The notes beneath the pieces were generated by a model, which made no database searches, had not been told where the DNA came from, and worked only from the letters and a program-made list of their open reading frames with translations. Both the position numbers and the translations under genes were made by a program. A stretch of DNA of 64,000 nt from Streptomyces antimycoticus (GTDB lineage Bacteria; Actinomycetota; Actinomycetes; Streptomycetales; Streptomycetaceae). The stretch spans positions 2,418,001 to 2,482,000 of the forward strand of contig NZ_BJHV01000001.1 in the NCBI RefSeq assembly GCF_005405925.1. The letters are read 5' to 3'. Below are positions 7,391 to 21,730 of this stretch, piece by piece; the stretch's first letter is position 1; each line of letters opens with the position of its first letter.

Positions 7391-7889
7391 ATGCCCCCGA
7401 CAACTGCTGAACTGGTGCACGACCGGAGCCTCGGAGACCTGCTGATCCACCGTGATGTGGTCCTCGACGGACTCGATGCTCCGCAGCGCGCCGCCCGTAC
7501 CGTCCTGGCCGACATCCTGGACGGCAAGGCGGAGGATCAGCTCTTCGACGCCATGCTGGTGGCCAGCGAACTCATCGCCAACGTCATCCAGCACAGCAGC
7601 GGTGCGGTCCATAAGGGGTGAGGTCTACGAGTTCGGTGCGGCGTTGGGCGTCGTTGACCCCGGGGCCGACATCACCGCCGTCCCTGTCCGACCTCCGAAC
7701 TCATCGGTTGACGAAGGGACGGCGGCTGCAAGCGGGCGGGGCCTGTTCATCGTGGACAGCCTCGCCGGCCATGTGGCGCGGATTCTGCAGGGCGCGGTGG
7801 GAATCCCGGAGACGGGCGGGATGTACCGCGTGGCGATCGAGGACGTCAGCGCCTGGACCATGGGCGACTTCAGCTACTCCGACCACTGA
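7391..7889 (+). pseudogene. Anti-sigma-type ATP-binding protein (HATPase_c), one frameshift
   Basis: The N-terminal part (from the ATG at 7391) holds the N-box ASELIANVIQHSSG of RsbW/SpoIIAB-like ATPases. It then stops at 7621 just after a GGGG run. The next frame continues with EVYEFGAALGVVDPGAD and the G-box SGRGLFIVDSLAGH to a stop at 7889. One base change near 7612 would restore a roughly 165-aa protein. It lies 27 bp after the permease and may be cotranscribed. Such proteins usually sequester sigma factors or antagonists. Confidence 0.75.
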
Positions 7890-10655: not shown

Positions 10656-10859
10656 TCAGACGGGAACGATGTTCTCGGCCGTCGGGCCCTTCTGCCCCTG
10701 CGCGATGTCGAAGGTGACCCTCTGGCCTTCGAGCAGCTCACGGAAGCCCTGGGCGGCGATGTTCGAGAAGTGGGCGAACACGTCAGCGCCGCCACCGTCC
10801 TGCTCGATGAAGCCGAAACCCTTGGCCGCGTTGAACCACTTCACGGTGCCAGACGCCAT
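10656..10859 (-). CDS. Cold-shock protein (CspA/CSD family)
   Basis: The 67-aa product is a classic cold-shock domain: RNP1 in [11 protein letters not shown] and RNP2 in VFAHFSNI, ending TAENIVPV. It binds single-stranded RNA/DNA and melts secondary structure. The ATG at 10859 is preceded by AAGGAG with a 7-bp spacer. It is the intact member of two csp genes here and sits upstream of the helicase, separated from it by a strong terminator. Confidence 0.95.
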
Positions 10860-11433
10860 GTCATATCTCCTTTGGGGCAGTACGCCGGGATCCGCAATGC
10901 GCGGATACCGGGTCGCCGCAATGATGCCCCACCCGGAAAATGACCGGAAATACAAAATGCTTCCAGCGGCTGAAAATGCCGACGAAGACGCTTCAAGTTT
11001 GGGAATCAAGCTGCAACTGAGATCGACACTAGCATGCCGTAAGCGGTCTGTGCACGTTAAATGATTCCACTCCGTTCGTTTCAGTAAAAACATTCTCCGC
11101 ATGGCGCGTTAAACTCTCACGTCGCGGTCATAGATATTGATCCGCCCGGAGCGCAAGGTTTCAGGAAGAGCGGTCGCCGTTCACGGCTCGGAGGGCACGA
11201 CTATCCCGGTGGCACGATCCGTACCGTTCAGCCCGGCGTCGGCCTCATCGGCCCGTATGCCGGTCCCAACACGCATCAGGGCCGGCGGCTGTTGTGCTGC
11301 GCGGCCCTGATCCCGTGTGCCGCCCAGATCCCGCCACCGTCGACTGAAGGCCGACGCCGGCTGTTCGGGTGAACCCGTCGGACAGCAGGGCCTGCCCGGG
11401 GGCAGCCGTACGCTCCGAGTGCGGGCGGGAAGG
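10860..11433 (-). other. AT-richer csp leader and intergenic region
   Basis: The 240 bp next to the csp start are clearly AT-richer than their surroundings, as expected for a csp promoter and long leader. Further right no gene is visible; a 9-bp inverted repeat lies at 11275-11311. Confidence 0.5.
11275..11311. terminator. Inverted repeat downstream of the second csp gene
   Basis: ATCAGGGCC and GGCCCTGAT form a perfect 9-bp stem around 19 nt, about 120 bp beyond the stop of the frameshifted csp gene. Confidence 0.45.
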
Positions 11434-11642
11434 TCAGGCGGGGTTGATGTTCTCGGCCTGGGGGCCCTTCTGGCCTTGGGTGATGTCGAACGTCACGGCC
11501 TGGCCTTCCTGGAGCTCACGGAAGCCCGAGGAGTTGATCGCGGAGTAGCGGGCGAGACGTCCGCGCCGCCGCCGTCCTGGGCGATGAAGCCGAAGCCTTT
11601 CCCCGCGTTGAACCACTTCATAGTTCCCGTAGCCAGTCTCAT
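11434..11642 (-). pseudogene. Second cold-shock protein gene, frameshifted
   Basis: The start reads MRLATGTMKWFNAGKGFGF and [10 protein letters not shown]; the frame is then lost and regained as ARYSAINSSGFRELQEGQAV to a stop at 11434. The break, at about 11557, is where DVFA or DVFV is expected and one T seems to be missing. Either the gene is dead or one base was lost in sequencing. Confidence 0.8.
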
Positions 11643-11832
11643 GCCTTCCAGTCGATGAACGCCTCGCACGACGTGTCGAAGGCGGAGGTGATCGCCCTGG
11701 TTCCTGCGGCACAGCACAGCAGAACGCCCACGCCGAGGACATGGGCGAAGGGGAACGTCCGAACCATGACAGCGGACTCAGACGCTACAGTCCGCGCACC
11801 CTGCCACCACAGGAAACGACCCATGCGCCACG

Positions 11833-13520: not shown

Positions 13521-14956
13521 TTACGACAGGGCGTTCTCCATGTGTGCCGAGGCATCGTCCGCCTGGGCGGGCTTGTAGTAGCGGCCCTTGGTCGCGGCGG
13601 TGAAGGCAACATGCAGGATGGGGCCGAGCACCATCGAGATGAACGACGCGTAGTACTCCGGGTACATGCCACCGATGCCCAGCGCGCCGACCAGCACCGC
13701 CAGTCCGAGCGAGGCCAGTCCGCAGGGGTTCCAGGACCGCACCTCGTGCCGCTCGAACTCGATGTTCTCCCCCGGCCGAGCTTCATCCAGCGGCGGCATA
13801 CGAAGTAGTCGGCGAGGATGATCAGCACCCAGGTGTTGGTGAGGACACCCGCGATCGCCAGGAACGTGTCCAGGTGGTTGATGACGTTGAACGCGTAGAA
13901 GACCACGCCCAAAATCCACACCAAGTACGCCCAGTACTGGCGGCCGGGGCGGAAGTTGGCGGCGACATCGAAGCCGGAGGAGAGCGCGATGGAGCCGCCG
14001 TACAGGTTCATGACATTGATGCGGATCTGGGTGATGACAGCGAAGACAACACCCACACCACCCATGAGGGTCACGAACATGAAGCCCGGGTCCTGGGCGT
14101 TGGATTGCGCGTTTGGTCCGTGCAGTTCGGTCAGCAGAGTGAAACCGATGAAGGCGCCGAGGAAGATCACGGCGAACATCGGGATGAGTTCACCGAGCAT
14201 GATGGCGGCGGTGCCGCGGTAGCGGACGTCGCGGGAGGCGAATCGCCCGTAGTCGGTCGCCATCAGGCCCTGGAAGATCATCTGGCCGTTGGCGAGGCTG
14301 AACGCGCTCCACATCGCCACGCTGCCCGTGGCGCCCGTGGCGTGCAAGCCGCCCACGCCGACCGGCGTGTGCTCCGTGAACATCTTGTACAGGCCCCAGC
14401 CGAGCAGGATCAGGAACACTGGGAAGCCCCAGGACTGGAGGTACGACATGGCGTGCATGCCGCGTCGGACCACCAGCAGGGTGACCAGGCCCACCAGGGC
14501 GAAGATGCCGATGCCGGTGATGGAGTTGATGTCGACCTTGAAATACTGGGCGATCGCGTGCGAGACGATCGTTCCCTCGAAGAGGAAGTAGAAGATGTAG
14601 TTGACGGCGTAGATAAATGAGGTGACCGCCGCGCCCCGACTGCCGAAGCCAAGACCCCGGCTGAGCAGGTTCTGCGACAGGCCTTCCCGGCTCGCCATGC
14701 GCATGGTGAGCATGCCGATCACCACGGAGCCGATGAAGAAGTACGCGATCGGACCGAGCATTCCGGGCCATCCCACGAGGAACGCCTGCTGGGCACCGAA
14801 GGAGAAGAAGAACATCGCGGTGGCGTTGCCGAGAAGCACGAGGCTGATGGCGGGTATGGGCCACCGCAGATGCGCGGGGACGCGGTTGATCGCGAAGCTC
14901 TCGATCTGGTCGTCGATCGATGTCGTCGGTCCTCTGAATTTTTGCAGTGCGCTCAT
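13521..14956 (-). pseudogene. NCS1-family purine/pyrimidine-type permease, late frameshift
   Basis: The first 400 residues form an intact NCS1 permease: about ten membrane helices, SIDDQIESFAINRVP at the N-terminus, GQMIFQGLMATDYGRF mid-protein and VLTNTWVLIILADYFVCRR near the end. Near 13770 the frame shifts in a GGGGG run; the last helices (GLASLGLAVLVGALGIGGMYPEYYAS, and so on to AHMENALS) are in the next frame, ending at 13521. One base would restore about 478 aa. NCS1 carriers import nucleobases, hydantoins or thiamine-like compounds. The ATG at 14956 has GGAAGG 6 bp upstream. It follows the AbrB-SBP fusion by 82 bp and is probably cotranscribed. Confidence 0.8.
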
Positions 14957-15038
14957 GGTGCACCTTCCTTGGCCACGGGTCACTGAAGAGAAATCCGGCG
15001 TGATGTTCCGGTTCCACCTCACGTCCGTCTGGTCCCGC

Positions 15039-16481
15039 TCAGGATGTGGCGACCGGTTTCCCGATGGGACGGGGACCGTCCCATACGAGGCGGAGATTGC
15101 CGAGCGTGCGATAGACGTGAAGACTCATCTCGTTGTCGACCAGTTCGGCCGACGAGTGGTACTGCTGAAGGGTGCCGACGAACCTGTTGAGAACGCCGTT
15201 CTCCTTCCACGCCTCGTGGTCCACCGCGATGTGGGGCGGCAGGAAGTTGCGCCTCAGAGAGCGCCGTGTGGCGCTGTCGATCACCTTAGGGTCGATGTGG
15301 GGGAATTCCAGCTGAGCCACCCGGACCGCTTCGTCCGGGAAGGCATGGGCATACTGACAGGCTTTTTCCAGCGCGGTGATCACCGCTTTGTGCTGTGCGG
15401 GCTTGTCCTGCACGGTGCCACGCCGGGTGGCAAGAGCCGACAGCAGATACGGGCCGAAGAAGGTGGAGAAGTCGAAGACCTCTCGCAGGCCCTGCGACAT
15501 GGCCACGTCCGCCTGCGGCGGAAACGCGAGGCAGATGTCGGCCTGCCCGGCCAGGACGGGGGCCGGTTCGGTGCCGATCGGCACCTGGAGGCCGCGGTAG
15601 GAAGACCTGGGGCCCGCCTGGTAAAGGAACTGAAGGTAGCGCAGCAGGGCCCACTGCGAGTCGGGCTGGGGCTGGGTGGCGACGGTGCGTCCGGCGACAG
15701 TCCGCGTGCTGAAAATGTGTGGGTCGTCAGTGGCCTCCACGTCCGAGTCCGCGGCCAGGGCCAAGATGGCCTGCCCGTTGCAGATGCTGCCGACCACGAC
15801 CGCATCCTCGATCCCTTGTTCGAAAGCGCGGACGGTGAACACGGGATCGTGGATGGAATAGTCGGCGATGTCCGCCTCCACCGCGGACCAGGCCTCGCTG
15901 CCTCCGCCTGCGGTGGTGATCTCGGCCCGCACTCCTTCGTCTGCGAAGAAACCCACGTCATGGGCGATATACAGCGGCAAATACAACAGCGAGTGGTACG
16001 CCTGGGCGATCCGTACGGCCGCCTGTGGCGCCTCCTCGGCCACGGTGGGCGCGGGAGGCGCCTCGGTCGGGGCGGGCTCGGTGCCGGCCAGCAGCGCCGT
16101 GATCGACGCCGAGGGCAGGCCCAGCATCAGTGACTCGCTGATGAACGCCCGCTGCGTCACGTCACCGCGCTGGTAGCGCTGTACCAGTGCGTCAAGCGCG
16201 CGCCCGGTGGTGACCGGAAGCCGGCGGCGTCGGACCAGTTCGCGGGCCCGTTCTCCTATGTCGTCCTCGGTGAGCTCCGGCGCGGACCGATCCCCGACCC
16301 GGTAGACCAGGTCCGCCTGCAAGCGGTCAAGGACCGCGACCGGACGCAGCAGAATCGTTCCGTCATCCTGGAGGACGACCTCGACCACGTCACCCTCGTG
16401 CAGTTCGGCCGCACGGCGCACCGGCATGGGCAGGGTGATCTGCCCATTACTGCGGATATGAATAGTTTCCGGACGGTCCAT
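15039..16481 (-). CDS. AbrB-like DNA-binding domain fused to an NMT1/SsuA-like ligand-binding domain
   Basis: Residues 1-50 look like an AbrB/MazE swapped-hairpin DNA-binding domain (ETIHIRSNGQITLPMPVRRA, EGDVVEVVLQDDGTILLRP). Residues 50-120 are a helical linker with a second possible helix-turn-helix (TTGRALDALVQRYQRGDVTQ). From about 150 to 470 the protein resembles periplasmic substrate-binding proteins of the taurine/nitrate/NMT1-THI5 type (AQAYHSLLYLPLYIAHDVGFFADEG, AILALAADSD). There is no signal peptide or lipobox, so this solute-binding fold is in the cytoplasm. I infer a one-component regulator that senses a small molecule. Neighbours are an NCS1 permease and a C69 peptidase; a TGAGATCTCA palindrome lies 20 bp upstream of its start and another upstream of the peptidase. 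A frameshift or missing key residue is not apparent. Confidence 0.85.
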   Translation of the reverse strand: MDRPETIHIRSNGQITLPMPVRRAAELHEGDVVEVVLQDDGTILLRPVAVLDRLQADLVYRVGDRSAPELTEDDIGERARELVRRRRLPVTTGRALDALVQRYQRGDVTQRAFISESLMLGLPSASITALLAGTEPAPTEAPPAPTVAEEAPQAAVRIAQAYHSLLYLPLYIAHDVGFFADEGVRAEITTAGGGSEAWSAVEADIADYSIHDPVFTVRAFEQGIEDAVVVGSICNGQAILALAADSDVEATDDPHIFSTRTVAGRTVATQPQPDSQWALLRYLQFLYQAGPRSSYRGLQVPIGTEPAPVLAGQADICLAFPPQADVAMSQGLREVFDFSTFFGPYLLSALATRRGTVQDKPAQHKAVITALEKACQYAHAFPDEAVRVAQLEFPHIDPKVIDSATRRSLRRNFLPPHIAVDHEAWKENGVLNRFVGTLQQYHSSAELVDNEMSLHVYRTLGNLRLVWDGPRPIGKPVATS

Positions 16482-16499
16482 GGCCCCTCGATCTTGCTT

Positions 16500-16513
16500 C
16501 TTGAGATCTCAGA
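16500..16513. promoter_or_regulatory. Operator-like site upstream of the AbrB-SBP gene
   Basis: CTTGAGATCTCAGA contains the 10-bp palindrome TGAGATCTCA. The identical 14 bp recur at 18067-18080 with the same orientation. Confidence 0.7.
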
Positions 16514-16556
16514 TCCGACTTCTTTAAGCCGGTAGCCTGCATACCTTGCGTGGGCT

Positions 16557-16562
16557 TGTCAA
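16557..16562 (-). promoter_or_regulatory. Candidate -35 element of the AbrB-SBP promoter
   Basis: A TTGACA hexamer on the minus strand lies 76 bp upstream of the start codon and 45 bp upstream of the operator-like site. No strong -10 is visible. Confidence 0.4.
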
Positions 16563-16590
16563 GGCTTCTTCAGTGGTGACAAGACGTCTC

Positions 16591-18015
16591 TCAGCCGGAA
16601 AGCTGCGCGACGAGGTGGTCGAGGACCTCCAGTGCCTGCTGCGCGCAGGACTCGGTGTAGCCGGCCAGGAAGTCGGTCATCGCCGTGTGACCGCTCCGCT
16701 CGCGCAGCACGAGCGCATCCTTCTCCACCTGCGGGAGCTCGGCCGCCCACTGCCGTTCCAGGGCGTCGAAGGCCCGCCGCACTATGGGCTGGTTCTCGTT
16801 GAAGGTCCATGCCGACTCGCCGCCCTTGACGAGCTCAAGCAGCCGACGGAACCGCCACCAGTACGACCCTTCGTCATACGTGTCCACCGGTGCGTGCTCG
16901 GGGGGACACTCCCGGACACCCGCCGTCCCCGCCGCGGAAAAGGTCTTGGGTACCCTCCCGGCATCCACGAACACCGGCACGTACACACCGGTGCACGGCG
17001 TCACCGGCGTCCACCACAGGTAAGCCAGCCCCTCCTCGCTCTTCGGCAGCACGAACACCGCCGAGGAGGCAGTGTTGCCCCAGGTGAAGTCCGACGGATG
17101 GGAGTGCATGCACAGGCTCAGAAAGTCGGGCACTGCCGCATTGAAGTACGGGCCGCCCAGAAAGGTGTCCTCGTAGTGGTCACGCAGCACCCGCTGGGCC
17201 TGGCCGAGCCCCACCCCACCGGCCCCCGCCGCCTCGCCGAGCAGCTGTCGTGAGCGCTGGAGCCGGATGTGCGACAACTGAAGCGGCGTACCAGGGTCGA
17301 CATAGGCGCGCGCGAAGTCGAACGGTCGCCCAGGCGCGGGCTCCCACCAGCCGGAATCCACCGCGTGCTCCACCAGGTCGCCGCTGGCGCGGTCCCACTG
17401 GGTACGGATCGTCGGCTGGTTGGAGATGGCGTACGTCCCCGTGGTGACCTGCAGAGCGGCCCAGCGGTGACCGCTGGTCTCCAGCACCCACGCTTCCCGG
17501 GCGTCGGCGATGAGGAAGGAGTTGTCATAGCCACCCGTGACGGCCGGCTGCCCCACGACGCCGGAGCCCCACTGCCCGTACCGCTCCACCAGCGAGCTGA
17601 TGACGTCGAGCGCCTCCCGAGCCGTGCGGCCCCGCTCCAGACCCAGGCGCAGCAGCTCCATGCCGAGGATGCCGCCGTCCCGGTCGGCGCCCTCCTTGAC
17701 CGCGGACACCGTGGCCGCCCAGTCCCTGGTGAACATGGCCTCGTTGCCGATGGCCACACCCCATTCGTTCAGGCCCTCTTCGTGTCCCCAGCACCAGTAG
17801 GGCGAACCGCCCAGGTGTGCGTAGGACTCCTCGACGTCGTCGATCTCGACATGGGCCAGCCGCAGGGGGGCACCCGCCTCCGCGGTGCGCCGCGGCAGGA
17901 AACACAGCGGCTGTGTGTCGTCCACAGGGCGATCGCTGTTCTTGGCCAGCAGCACGTGCCCGCCGGGCACACTGTCGGCCATGGCCACGAATGTGTCGCA
18001 GCTCCATGGAATCAC
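16591..18015 (-). CDS. C69-family dipeptidase (secernin-like Ntn hydrolase)
   Basis: The N-terminus carries the C69 signature SCDTFVAMADSVPGGHVLLA followed by KNSDRP, with the nucleophile Cys close to the start as expected for Ntn hydrolases. NEWGVAIGNEAMFT and NQPTIRTQWDRAS are further family-type segments. I chose the GTG at 18015 (MIPWSCDTFV), preceded by GGGAGAA, because family members start just before the Cys. An upstream ATG at 18057 would overlap the promoter zone. About 474 aa. It is the first gene of a likely three-gene unit with the AbrB-SBP regulator and permease. Confidence 0.85.
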   Translation of the reverse strand: MIPWSCDTFVAMADSVPGGHVLLAKNSDRPVDDTQPLCFLPRRTAEAGAPLRLAHVEIDDVEESYAHLGGSPYWCWGHEEGLNEWGVAIGNEAMFTRDWAATVSAVKEGADRDGGILGMELLRLGLERGRTAREALDVISSLVERYGQWGSGVVGQPAVTGGYDNSFLIADAREAWVLETSGHRWAALQVTTGTYAISNQPTIRTQWDRASGDLVEHAVDSGWWEPAPGRPFDFARAYVDPGTPLQLSHIRLQRSRQLLGEAAGAGGVGLGQAQRVLRDHYEDTFLGGPYFNAAVPDFLSLCMHSHPSDFTWGNTASSAVFVLPKSEEGLAYLWWTPVTPCTGVYVPVFVDAGRVPKTFSAAGTAGVRECPPEHAPVDTYDEGSYWWRFRRLLELVKGGESAWTFNENQPIVRRAFDALERQWAAELPQVEKDALVLRERSGHTAMTDFLAGYTESCAQQALEVLDHLVAQLSG

Positions 18016-18066
18016 GGTCGTTTCTCCCACTCCGGCGAGAGCCGGCACTCGACTCATGGGTACGGG

Positions 18067-18080
18067 CTTGAGATCTCAGA
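18067..18080. promoter_or_regulatory. Operator-like site upstream of the C69 gene
   Basis: The same CTTGAGATCTCAGA as at 16500-16513. On the minus strand the palindrome directly follows TATTCT, a plausible -10, with TCGACA 19 bp further up as a weak -35. A repressor here would cover the transcription start. Confidence 0.7.
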
Positions 18081-18379
18081 ATACTCCCCTGTATGACCCA
18101 TTTGTCGACTCCCTGCTTCCAGGGCCTCCCTCCACACGCCGGCCGACCCTTGGGAACCCGGGCCGGAGGGGCGACAGTCTCCGTAATTGATCCCAGCCTT
18201 TGAGCGCATCCGGGTCGAGCCCCTGGGGGGGGCGTTTACCCACCGTGACGGACCTTTGCGCCACGTGGCATCCTCGCGAGATCATCCCGGTCGTCACCCT
18301 CACCATGAACTGAACGGTGGCGCCTACTGGTCGAAGATCCGCGACTGGAGGCTGTCGCCACCCACCCCACAAGGGCAGC
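18081..18379. other. Promoter region of the C69 gene and IS debris
   Basis: No gene is recognisable. The right side joins a fragment of the TGAAGGG-type IS found twice more in this window. Confidence 0.45.
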
Positions 18380-18602
18380 TGCGGTCGGTCGATCTGCCGA
18401 CGCAGCACCGCGACCTCGTGGCGGAGAATGAAAATCTCGGCGTTGCTCGCGGCGGTCGATTGGCCCAGCAAAAGGAAGCAGCCCAGCAGTCGACAGACGA
18501 TCAGGTAGAGCAGTCGCAGGCCCACGATCAGTGATCACGCCCATACCTGGGCGATCACAAAGCCCCAGGTCAACCACCGTACGGCAATAAAGACGCCCTT
18601 CA
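18380..18602 (-). mobile_element. Remnant of the TGAAGGG-end IS (copy C)
   Basis: The right end (to TGAAGGGCGTC, complement strand) and the first ~45 codons of the transposase ([33 protein letters not shown]) match the complete copy at 33290-34500. The rest of the element is missing. Confidence 0.85.
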
Positions 18603-20129: not shown

Positions 20130-21539
20130 TCAAGATCCGTGTCTCGCGTGTCCGGGATCGAGGCGTTGAGCGCCCGCGCGGACTGACGTCGCGTTGCGCC
20201 GGTCATGCAGGGTGAAGTCGGCCCGGACGGCCACTCCGGACTGCAGCAGCTTCTGGTGGACCAGGGGGCCCCGGCCGGGGTGCGAGACGACGATGCTGAT
20301 GTATCCCTCGGGCAGTCCGGTCACGGCGTACTCGCCGCGCGCGTTCGTCGTGGTGCGCACCAACTGCCGGCCGCCGGTGTCCATGACGGTCACCGCGACA
20401 TGGCGGATGGGCTGCTGTTCGCCGTCGCGGACGGTGCCCTCCAGCATCGGCAACAGCTCGCCGAAGTGGTGGGGATGGACCGGTAGCGCGGTGGGTGTGG
20501 GCGCTTCCACGGAGGGGTCCTCCACCGGCGGTTCGGGAACGTCCTCGGGCTCGTCCTGCGCTTCCCGTCGTAGGGCCATGCGGTGGTGGTGCCAGGCGTC
20601 GAGGCCCAGCAGCGCCATACCCGCGGTGATCCACACGCACAGCACGAGGACCGGCTTCAGCACCCCGGCACCGTCGAAGTACAGCACTCCTCTCAGGGCG
20701 TCGACCGCGTTGCCCAGCGGCATGACGGCGTGCAGGGCTTGGAAGAACCCCGGCAGCAGCTGGACGGGGACCAGGCCGCTGGAGGGAACGCTCAGCACGA
20801 CGTACAGGCCCAGACCCGCCAGTGGGAAGAAGTGCTTGACGAAGGGCGCCATGCCGAGGGAGAACGTGGCCACGGCGGTGGTGAGCAGGAAGGCGATCGC
20901 CAGGGCCGTGGGGTCGTTGGGGAAGAAGCCCAGTCCCGCGCCGACGAGGAAACCCACGACGCTGAACAGGCCGGCGACGCCTGCGACCGTGATCAGCTTC
21001 TTGCGCCGGTTGAAGGTCACCGCTCGCAGCAGGGTCGTGGCGAGTATGTAGCCGGGGACGTTCCAGGCGATCCCGAAGTAGACCACGGTGGTGCCGGGCC
21101 CGTCCTTGCTGACCGTGGGGGCTACGTCCGTGACGGTGAGCTTCTGGTGGTTGCGCGCCGCAAGTTGGGTGAAGCCCTTGGTCAGCGCCTGCTCCAGGGT
21201 CGCGCCGTTGGCCTTGGCCACATACAGCACGGCATGTCTGCCCTTGGCGGCGAAGCCTGCCACGCCGTCCCGGTCCAGCACCGCCCGGCGGGCTTCTCGG
21301 GCGTCTGCGACGGCGGTGACCTCGAACCCGCCGGGATGATGCCGCTGCAGGGCGGTGTCGACATCGCGTTCCACTGCGGGATCGGCGATCACGAGCTTGG
21401 CGTGGTGGGGCTGAGGCTGGTGAAAGGCCATGGGGAAGCAGAAGAGCAGGCCGAGGAAGAGTACTGCCGGCATCGTGAGGGTCTCGACGAGGACTCTGGC
21501 CACGGATATGCCCCGGGGACGCTCGATCCGGTGTTTCAC
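20130..21539 (-). CDS. ABC-2/YhgE-type membrane protein with carboxypeptidase-regulatory-like tail
   Basis: This 469-aa protein has one N-terminal helix (PAVLFLGLLFCFPMAF), a large external loop, then about five more helices in the ABC-2 permease/YhgE-Pip pattern (GLVPVQLLPGFFQALHAVMP; LGNAVDALRGVLYF). After an acidic, Pro-rich linker the C-terminal 90 residues form a carboxypeptidase-regulatory-like beta domain (GTVRDGEQQPIRHVAVTVMD, TTTNARGEYAVTGLPEGY). The GTG at 21539 has AAGGGG upstream. It is divergent from a TetR regulator and is probably the exporter it controls. No ATP-binding gene is adjacent. Confidence 0.78.
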   Translation of the reverse strand: MKHRIERPRGISVARVLVETLTMPAVLFLGLLFCFPMAFHQPQPHHAKLVIADPAVERDVDTALQRHHPGGFEVTAVADAREARRAVLDRDGVAGFAAKGRHAVLYVAKANGATLEQALTKGFTQLAARNHQKLTVTDVAPTVSKDGPGTTVVYFGIAWNVPGYILATTLLRAVTFNRRKKLITVAGVAGLFSVVGFLVGAGLGFFPNDPTALAIAFLLTTAVATFSLGMAPFVKHFFPLAGLGLYVVLSVPSSGLVPVQLLPGFFQALHAVMPLGNAVDALRGVLYFDGAGVLKPVLVLCVWITAGMALLGLDAWHHHRMALRREAQDEPEDVPEPPVEDPSVEAPTPTALPVHPHHFGELLPMLEGTVRDGEQQPIRHVAVTVMDTGGRQLVRTTTNARGEYAVTGLPEGYISIVVSHPGRGPLVHQKLLQSGVAVRADFTLHDRRNATSVRAGAQRLDPGHARHGS

Positions 21540-21730
21540 AGGACCACCCCTTGGCCGCGGCGAGCCATGCCGCGGAGCCCGCGGGGCACACGACCGACCG
21601 GATGCCCGGTAACCCCATGGCCGCCCCTCCGGTACCGGTGGTCCTTCGCCATTCGCGGTCCAATCAGTTTCACGGCCCCCCCTCTCGGCTGCCCCGCGCC
21701 TGACCGTCGCCACGGCGCCACTCGATTAAC

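Follow-up and report, generated by a model that had tools for sequence, protein, structure and literature searches.

In the sporulation regulator SpoVT, an AbrB DNA-binding domain precedes a sensor-type GAF domain. In the cyanobacterial proteins NrtC and CmpC an NrtA/CmpA-like binding fold serves, according to structure entry titles, as a regulatory domain; its fusion partner is the ATPase of the transporter, and no DNA-binding domain is involved. A solute-binding domain and a DNA-binding domain in one chain are known from SgrR and its homologue DsvR; DsvR is described with a helix-turn-helix and an SBP_bac_5 domain and with an 11-bp motif immediately ahead of the start codon of its gene, and SgrR as repressing its own gene (PMC13060122). 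In addition, a survey states that cytosolic signalling proteins, too, use domains of the solute-binding protein (SBP) type as sensors (PMC9602780). Here, a stretch of 64,000 nucleotides of Streptomyces antimycoticus (contig NZ_BJHV01000001.1, positions 2,418,001 to 2,482,000; referred to as the window) was analysed, which encodes a protein with an AbrB domain in front of a solute-binding domain of the NMT1/THI5/SsuA type (referred to as the fusion). From sequence evidence it is proposed, with a probability of roughly 0.68, that the fusion is a cytosolic one-component factor which represses its own small operon, comprising the genes for an N-terminal nucleophile (Ntn) hydrolase, the regulator and an NCS1-like permease.

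The fusion shares with SgrR and DsvR the presence of both domain functions in one chain. Whereas these proteins have an N-terminal helix-turn-helix and a C-terminal SBP_bac_5 domain, the fusion has AbrB and NMT1-type domains and a site at one operon; neither the SgrR winged-helix nor the SBP_bac_5 model was listed by Pfam for the window protein (E up to 1) or for 33 aligned fusions (E up to 10), and a separate origin of the fusion is inferred. The initial annotation had suggested a possible new type of regulator; the type is not entirely new, because SgrR and DsvR precede it with solute-binding domains as cytosolic sensors of DNA-binding proteins. A solute-binding sensor on a DNA-binding protein is thus already known, and the pairing of AbrB with a nutrient-binding domain may be new; a literature search found no description of AbrB with an NMT1 or other solute-binding domain, a weak negative as a similar query for SgrR was also empty. 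The order of an AbrB domain and a sensor-type domain is common to SpoVT and the fusion, but in the latter the sensor has a solute-binding fold and the control would be that of a local operon. The regulatory domain of NrtC/CmpC (8wm7_C, 9uai) is a fold match to the binding domain of the fusion. Proteins of the NMT1/THI5/SsuA type share the fold and sequence of fusion residues about 153-471; in contrast to them, the fusion has no N-terminal signal, carries AbrB in front and is without a detected ATP-binding cassette (ABC) partner in six of the seven fusion loci read, where two ABC ATPase/permease query pairs gave no match (7.8-25 kb each).

The fusion protein and its family

In Pfam, the window protein matched MazE/AbrB (PF04014, E 6.2e-11, residues 11-48), NMT1 (PF09084, E 3.1e-12, residues 168-385) and NMT1_2 (E 4.1e-10), all above the cut-off. 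In NCBIfam, lp_hng_hel_AbrB was matched above the cut-off (E 5.2e-09) and SsuA_fam far under it (E 6.1e-08). Solved SpoVT structures (2w1t, 2ro5) match the AbrB domain, and residues about 153-471 gave sequence or fold matches to 3qsl, Thi5, ThiY (3ix1), SsuA and PqqT. Because the AbrB domain begins at the N-terminus, the protein has no N-terminal signal, in agreement with the initial annotation, which had described a binding fold of NMT1/SsuA type without an export signal.

In a large protein set, of which only the 7995 candidates with the most shared words were scored, 45 homologues of the fusion were found. The window protein and 32 of these were aligned (49-92% identity; P0032 as listed starts within the AbrB domain). 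Left out were P0026, by eye an internal-start copy of the protein of locus L036, and P0034-P0045, for which no AbrB domain was listed. An AbrB-like N-terminus had been named beforehand as one of the tests of the initial annotation, and both AbrB/MazE models (PF04014, TIGR01439) as well as PF09084 and PF13379 were matched by all 33 aligned proteins (E up to 10), so that the two domains occur together throughout. A maximum-likelihood tree was built from the binding domains of the 33 fusions and 10 free relatives, and in it a branch with support 96/87 separates the fusions from the rest; the 43 rows omit P0026, P0039 and P0044 (short, or by eye apparently frameshifted), and P0045, P0041, P0030 and P0034 have long branches. 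The AbrB-SBP fusion is a real protein family, some members of which are labelled in databases as 'AbrB family looped-hinge helix DNA binding protein' or as 'ABC transporter substrate-binding protein'.

Named sources of homologues include Actinacidiphila, Streptomyces antimycoticus, Pseudonocardia, Prauserella, Egibacteraceae and Dormibacteraeota. The fusion is rare, being present in 3 of 394 genomes of the family (including the window's own), in 1 of 394 of the class (the window's own) and in 2 of 297 genomes of the family of Prauserella flavalba, one of which is that genome itself. Class and phylum genome samples (394 with the window protein as query, 396 with P0023) matched the own genome only and thus yielded no contexts of deeper fusions. 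Among viral contigs, 79 stretches fitted a pattern and none contained a relative; 17 plasmid records had matches, none covering 80% of the query.

Four arginines of AbrB (R8, R15, R23 and R24) are proposed for DNA contact (PMC4022651). R22 and R23 of the fusion, invariant in the 33 aligned proteins, align with R23 and R24 of AbrB, the equivalence being drawn from the matched ranges. In the binding domain, 69 residues are invariant among the fusions. The exported relatives P0035 and P0036 share 62 of them each, P0034 shares 63, four relatives of about 45% identity share 54-56 and the remote P0045 shares 33. Since the exported relatives keep most of these residues, the domain probably still binds a solute.

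The palindromic site and its operon

The initial annotation had pointed to an identical 14-bp sequence upstream of the fusion gene and of the neighbouring hydrolase gene, and CTTGAGATCTCAGA is indeed present in two exact copies (Table 1), reading TCTGAGATCTCAAG in gene orientation. Its core TGAGATCTCA was matched twice in the window, where 0.03 matches would be expected, and none of 100 shuffles reached two. With three mismatches allowed, 5 matches were found against 3.15 expected, and 5 were reached in 18 of 100 shuffles; only the exact copies stand out, therefore. Across the 11.17-Mb genome TGAGATCTCA occurs at four places, two of which are the operon sites. The third (L004) lies inside an open reading frame (ORF) that is nonribosomal-peptide-synthetase-like by eye, and the fourth (L001 1501-1510; genome 2405698) about 29 kb off the operon among short ORFs without a visible link; one of these short ORFs is acetyltransferase-like by eye. 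Chance as the origin of the window repeat was rejected on the basis of the shuffles, the genome scan and a control pattern in family genomes.

The loci read were the window, L005-L009 (chosen by protein similarity) and L036 (from genome G1020). In all seven, palindromes centred on GAGATCTC lie directly upstream of the unit containing the fusion gene, 15 sites in total, three of which are the perfect CTTGAGATCTCAAG and the others at most three changes away; a GAGATCTC match at L036 4533, within a coding ORF, was excluded from the count. In L036 three tandem sites precede the fusion gene and a single site precedes the hydrolase gene; the three copies (7786-7826) follow each other head to tail with spacings of 14 and 13 bp and lie right behind the -10 place. 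L009 has two sites ahead of the hydrolase gene with the fusion gene directly next, and L007 one perfect site with a degenerate second copy (by eye) right after the -10 place.

In six distinct fusion genomes (8 records, 2 being duplicates as judged from size and coordinates) CTTGAGATCTCA is confined to the fusion operon, as is the shorter core TTGAGATCTCA in the seventh genome, G1020, both for the genomes as assembled. Among 200 family genomes, CTTGAGATCTCA was found in 9, comprising all 3 with the fusion and 6 of the 197 without it, with one copy each in the latter; the control pattern, which is the reversed site, occurred in 3 of the 200. When the 3-kb loci around these six copies were compared by tblastn with fusion, hydrolase and permease, one chance-level match (E 0.77) resulted, so that none of the three genes lies beside them. 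The expectation that homologues carry the site was borne out in the seven loci read. A regulon of its own had also been suggested for the fusion; the sites found delimit one operon.

TTGACA or TTGACG is present in all seven upstream regions (of the fusion gene in six, of the hydrolase gene in L009). The -10 hexamers, placed by spacing, are weak; CATGCT occurs in three, in L005 one base on. With a spacing of 17 bases, the palindrome cores in 7/7 begin 0-31 nt past the -10 place, still ahead of the start codon. From these sequence features a promoter ahead of the unit is likely, and a site overlapping or just past the transcription start is a repressor position.

The order hydrolase-fusion-permease on one strand is kept in six of the seven loci (the window, L005, L006, L008, L009 and L036). 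The hydrolase passed the cut-off of Pfam C69 (PF03577, 37.6 against 23), reached 38.6 bits against a cut-off of 250 in the NCBIfam C69 model and also matched a C45 model under its cut-off; a search of the PDB by sequence returned weak relatives only (E 0.003 or more). By sequence, the partner earlier called a C69 dipeptidase is a divergent Ntn-hydrolase between C69 and C45 with a putative dipeptidase role. The ORFs of its relatives start with MLPWSC, MGETTVHPWSC or MPAWSC, with the Cys near the N-terminus and no signal, as is expected for a cytosolic Ntn enzyme. Among 249 family genomes, the hydrolase is present in exactly the three that bear the fusion. The NCS1 permease that had been reported to follow is present, but it lies far under the NCBIfam cut-off (40.5-50.2 bits against 353.1) and its frame is broken in the window. 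Two intact relatives had no Pfam match at E 0.001, and the permease had no PDB relative by sequence at E 0.01.

In L007/L037 the fusion stands apart and an adjoining 44-aa remnant (L037 10975-11106) matches the C-terminus of the hydrolase. About 3 kb from the fusion, L037 also encodes another, more distant hydrolase (51%) together with a permease (69%). This layout is evidence of a rearranged set and also a warning that hydrolase and permease can exist without this operator. ORFs that look alike by eye and share the motif LRHE.AVLRR were noticed in the window (18076-18525, just upstream of the hydrolase) and in L008 (429-782 and 7551-8159). They are perhaps the start of an insertion sequence (IS)-family transposase. 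Given the place of the window ORF beside the hydrolase, the unit has possibly been mobile.

Table 1. Features of the fusion locus in the window (all positions refer to the window)
Feature	Position	Strand	Basis or remark
AbrB-SBP fusion gene, 480 aa	15039..16481	minus (15039 = 3' end)	ORF list, domain matches, family
AbrB/MazE looped-hinge DNA-binding domain, residues 8-48	16338..16460	minus	domain and structure matches; R22, R23 invariant
Linker, residues 106-134, Tat-signal-like, without twin arginine	16080..16166	minus	alignment, shuffle scan
NMT1/THI5/SsuA-type solute-binding domain, residues about 153-471	15069..16025	minus	sequence and fold matches
Operator-like palindrome	16500-16513	minus	18 bp upstream of fusion start codon
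Promoter-like TTGACA-17-CAGGCT ahead of fusion gene	16534..16562	minus	-10 place set by spacing, weak match
C69/C45-like Ntn hydrolase	16591..18057	minus	relatives' ORFs start nearer Cys, without signal peptide
Second operator-like palindrome	18067-18080	minus	9 bp upstream of C69-like ORF as listed; 36 bp if start is 18030, as relatives suggest
NCS1-like permease, frame broken near 13770 at C-run	13521..14956	minus	intact in relatives

Proposed regulation and competing explanations

For the repression of its own operon by a cytosolic fusion, the following course of events is conceivable. The AbrB domain would bind CTTGAGATCTCAAG between promoter and start codon as a swapped-hairpin dimer, whereby transcription would be blocked; such a dimer facing the 14-bp palindrome fits. 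The permease would import a small solute, which would be captured by the solute-binding domain, and closure of this domain would loosen the dimer from the DNA. Upon release, uptake and breakdown of that solute would be switched on. We infer in this that the fusion binds the site, that it represses and does not activate, that the ligand induces, and also the class of the ligand. For the latter, a small nitrogen compound resembling an amide or a heterocycle is guessed from the neighbourhoods in 6 of the 17 plasmid records, with an amidase in five, an acetamidase/formamidase in two (including the sixth), a ring-opening amidohydrolase in one and thiC in one; it is a weak guess, since these relatives are less than 46% identical. 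A D-aminopeptidase and an M20 gene close to the L037 fusion, together with M24/creatinase-like proteins upstream of the unit in L036 (951-2594) and L009 (2187-3836), which are 42% identical, loosely hint at amide or peptide breakdown. If the proposal is true, the fusion would be a one-component regulator of the AbrB type that carries a nutrient-binding domain. As the operator is very clean, with one site type, one operon and low background, sensor and operator would be easy to test and perhaps reusable as a switch.

Several points weigh against this proposal. By the equivalence of matched ranges, R15 of AbrB corresponds to Gln14 and R8 to a residue other than arginine in the fusion. The predicted structure has a mean predicted local distance difference test (pLDDT) score of 69.6, with residues 50-71, 134-151 and 415-465 under 50. 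The loci examined for the site all belong to the window's 23-member clade, which does not include the deeper fusions P0023-P0033; window, L005, L006 and L008 are close kin (fusions 90-92% identical to that of the window), so that the independent weight of site conservation lies mainly with L007, L009 and L036 (64-70% identity). The window permease is frameshifted at a C-run (13767-13773), for which a sequencing error or a recent loss may be responsible, and open frames are long in L005, L036 and L009. L009 has ABC-transporter-like genes upstream, with an M24 gene between. Finally, the hydrolase-permease pair of L037 is without the site; in this 18-kb locus, beyond the fusion's own copy, two 3-mismatch matches only were found, neither adjoining the start of that hydrolase.

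The site could instead belong to another regulator, the fusion being merely a target whose AbrB domain serves, for example, in dimerisation or in an antitoxin-like role. AbrB/MazE domains are common in antitoxins, and the PrlF antitoxin model was matched by 23 of the 33 fusions (E up to 10, best 0.0008; under cut-off for the window protein). This explanation is nevertheless considered unlikely, as the site is restricted to the operon of the fusion and, among the three conserved genes, only the fusion has a DNA-binding domain. In the unit no toxin-like ORF was noticed by eye, no search having been aimed at toxins, and an antitoxin reading was set aside with no toxin gene visible. Placing the site under an activator, with ligand-bound fusion recruiting polymerase at the operon, could make use of the tandem sites in L009 and L036, which could suit cooperative binding; the cores, which in all seven loci coincide with the -10 place or follow it, are in a poor position for activation, which makes it very improbable.

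A membrane-tethered fusion, in which a hydrophobic segment resembling a twin-arginine translocation (Tat) signal spans the membrane with AbrB inside and the binding domain outside, would be a transmembrane one-component regulator. The hydrophobicity of the segment is that of true signals (19-residue Kyte-Doolittle mean 0.92-1.94 in 33 fusions, 1.29-1.70 in six exported controls), the insertion energy of the window segment (5.4, on a rough scale) lies within the 3.2-5.8 of the controls, and N-terminal signals are visible by eye in six of the free relatives read. RRxF is kept at the Tat position in 5 of the 33 fusions (P0023, P0028, P0031, P0032 and P0033), all of them outside the window's 23-member clade; within this clade, however, RR is found in 0 of 23 and RK in 10, the window protein having QR, and the hydrolase is also without a signal. 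Tethering is therefore regarded as quite unlikely, and the cytosolic repressor is preferred.

Origin of the linker and minor observations

P0035 and P0036, which fall outside the fusion clade, have by eye a Tat-type lipoprotein signal at the N-terminus, and MAFFT aligned this signal with the linker of the fusions (residues 106-134). In an ungapped scan of the linker region, the P0035 signal had its best match at this register in 33/33 fusions, with shuffle p <=0.05 in 30 and <=0.01 in 23; for the P0036 signal the register held in 32/33, with p <=0.05 in 27 and <=0.01 in 23. The rows are related, so the counts are non-independent. As sole query, the linker region retrieved nothing but itself (60 candidates), so that the evidence for a resemblance to Tat signals comes from the MAFFT alignment and the shuffles.

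A tentative scenario, possible rather than probable, is that an exported ABC binding protein became a transcription factor in one step, by fusion of AbrB in front of the whole precursor, Tat signal included. The trapped signal would have lost its twin arginine and become a linker, and the binding domain would have stayed in the cytosol, sensing the same solute and controlling one uptake operon via its own palindrome. If true, the fossil signal peptide would document a transporter part becoming a transcription factor. Against such an origin speak P0034, the free relative nearest the clade (long branch, support 85/77), and likewise P0041, neither of which has a signal in the listed sequence, with starts that may be miscalled in both. 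Among curated Tat models, where no general Tat-signal model was listed, TIGR04519 was matched by 2 of the 33 fusions with a best E of 0.056, which also weighs against it, as does the linker search that retrieved no other sequence.

For the fusion P0025 and the exported Tat-type P0035 the same length of the longest contig is given, 12,567 bases, so that the two may lie side by side. Elsewhere in the window, 20130-21713 shows weak DUF3533/ABC-2-like matches (under cut-off) together with a C-terminal carboxypeptidase regulatory-like domain, an odd pairing, and the ORFs at 10656-11102 and 11434-11742 are cold-shock-protein-like by eye, the second only in part.

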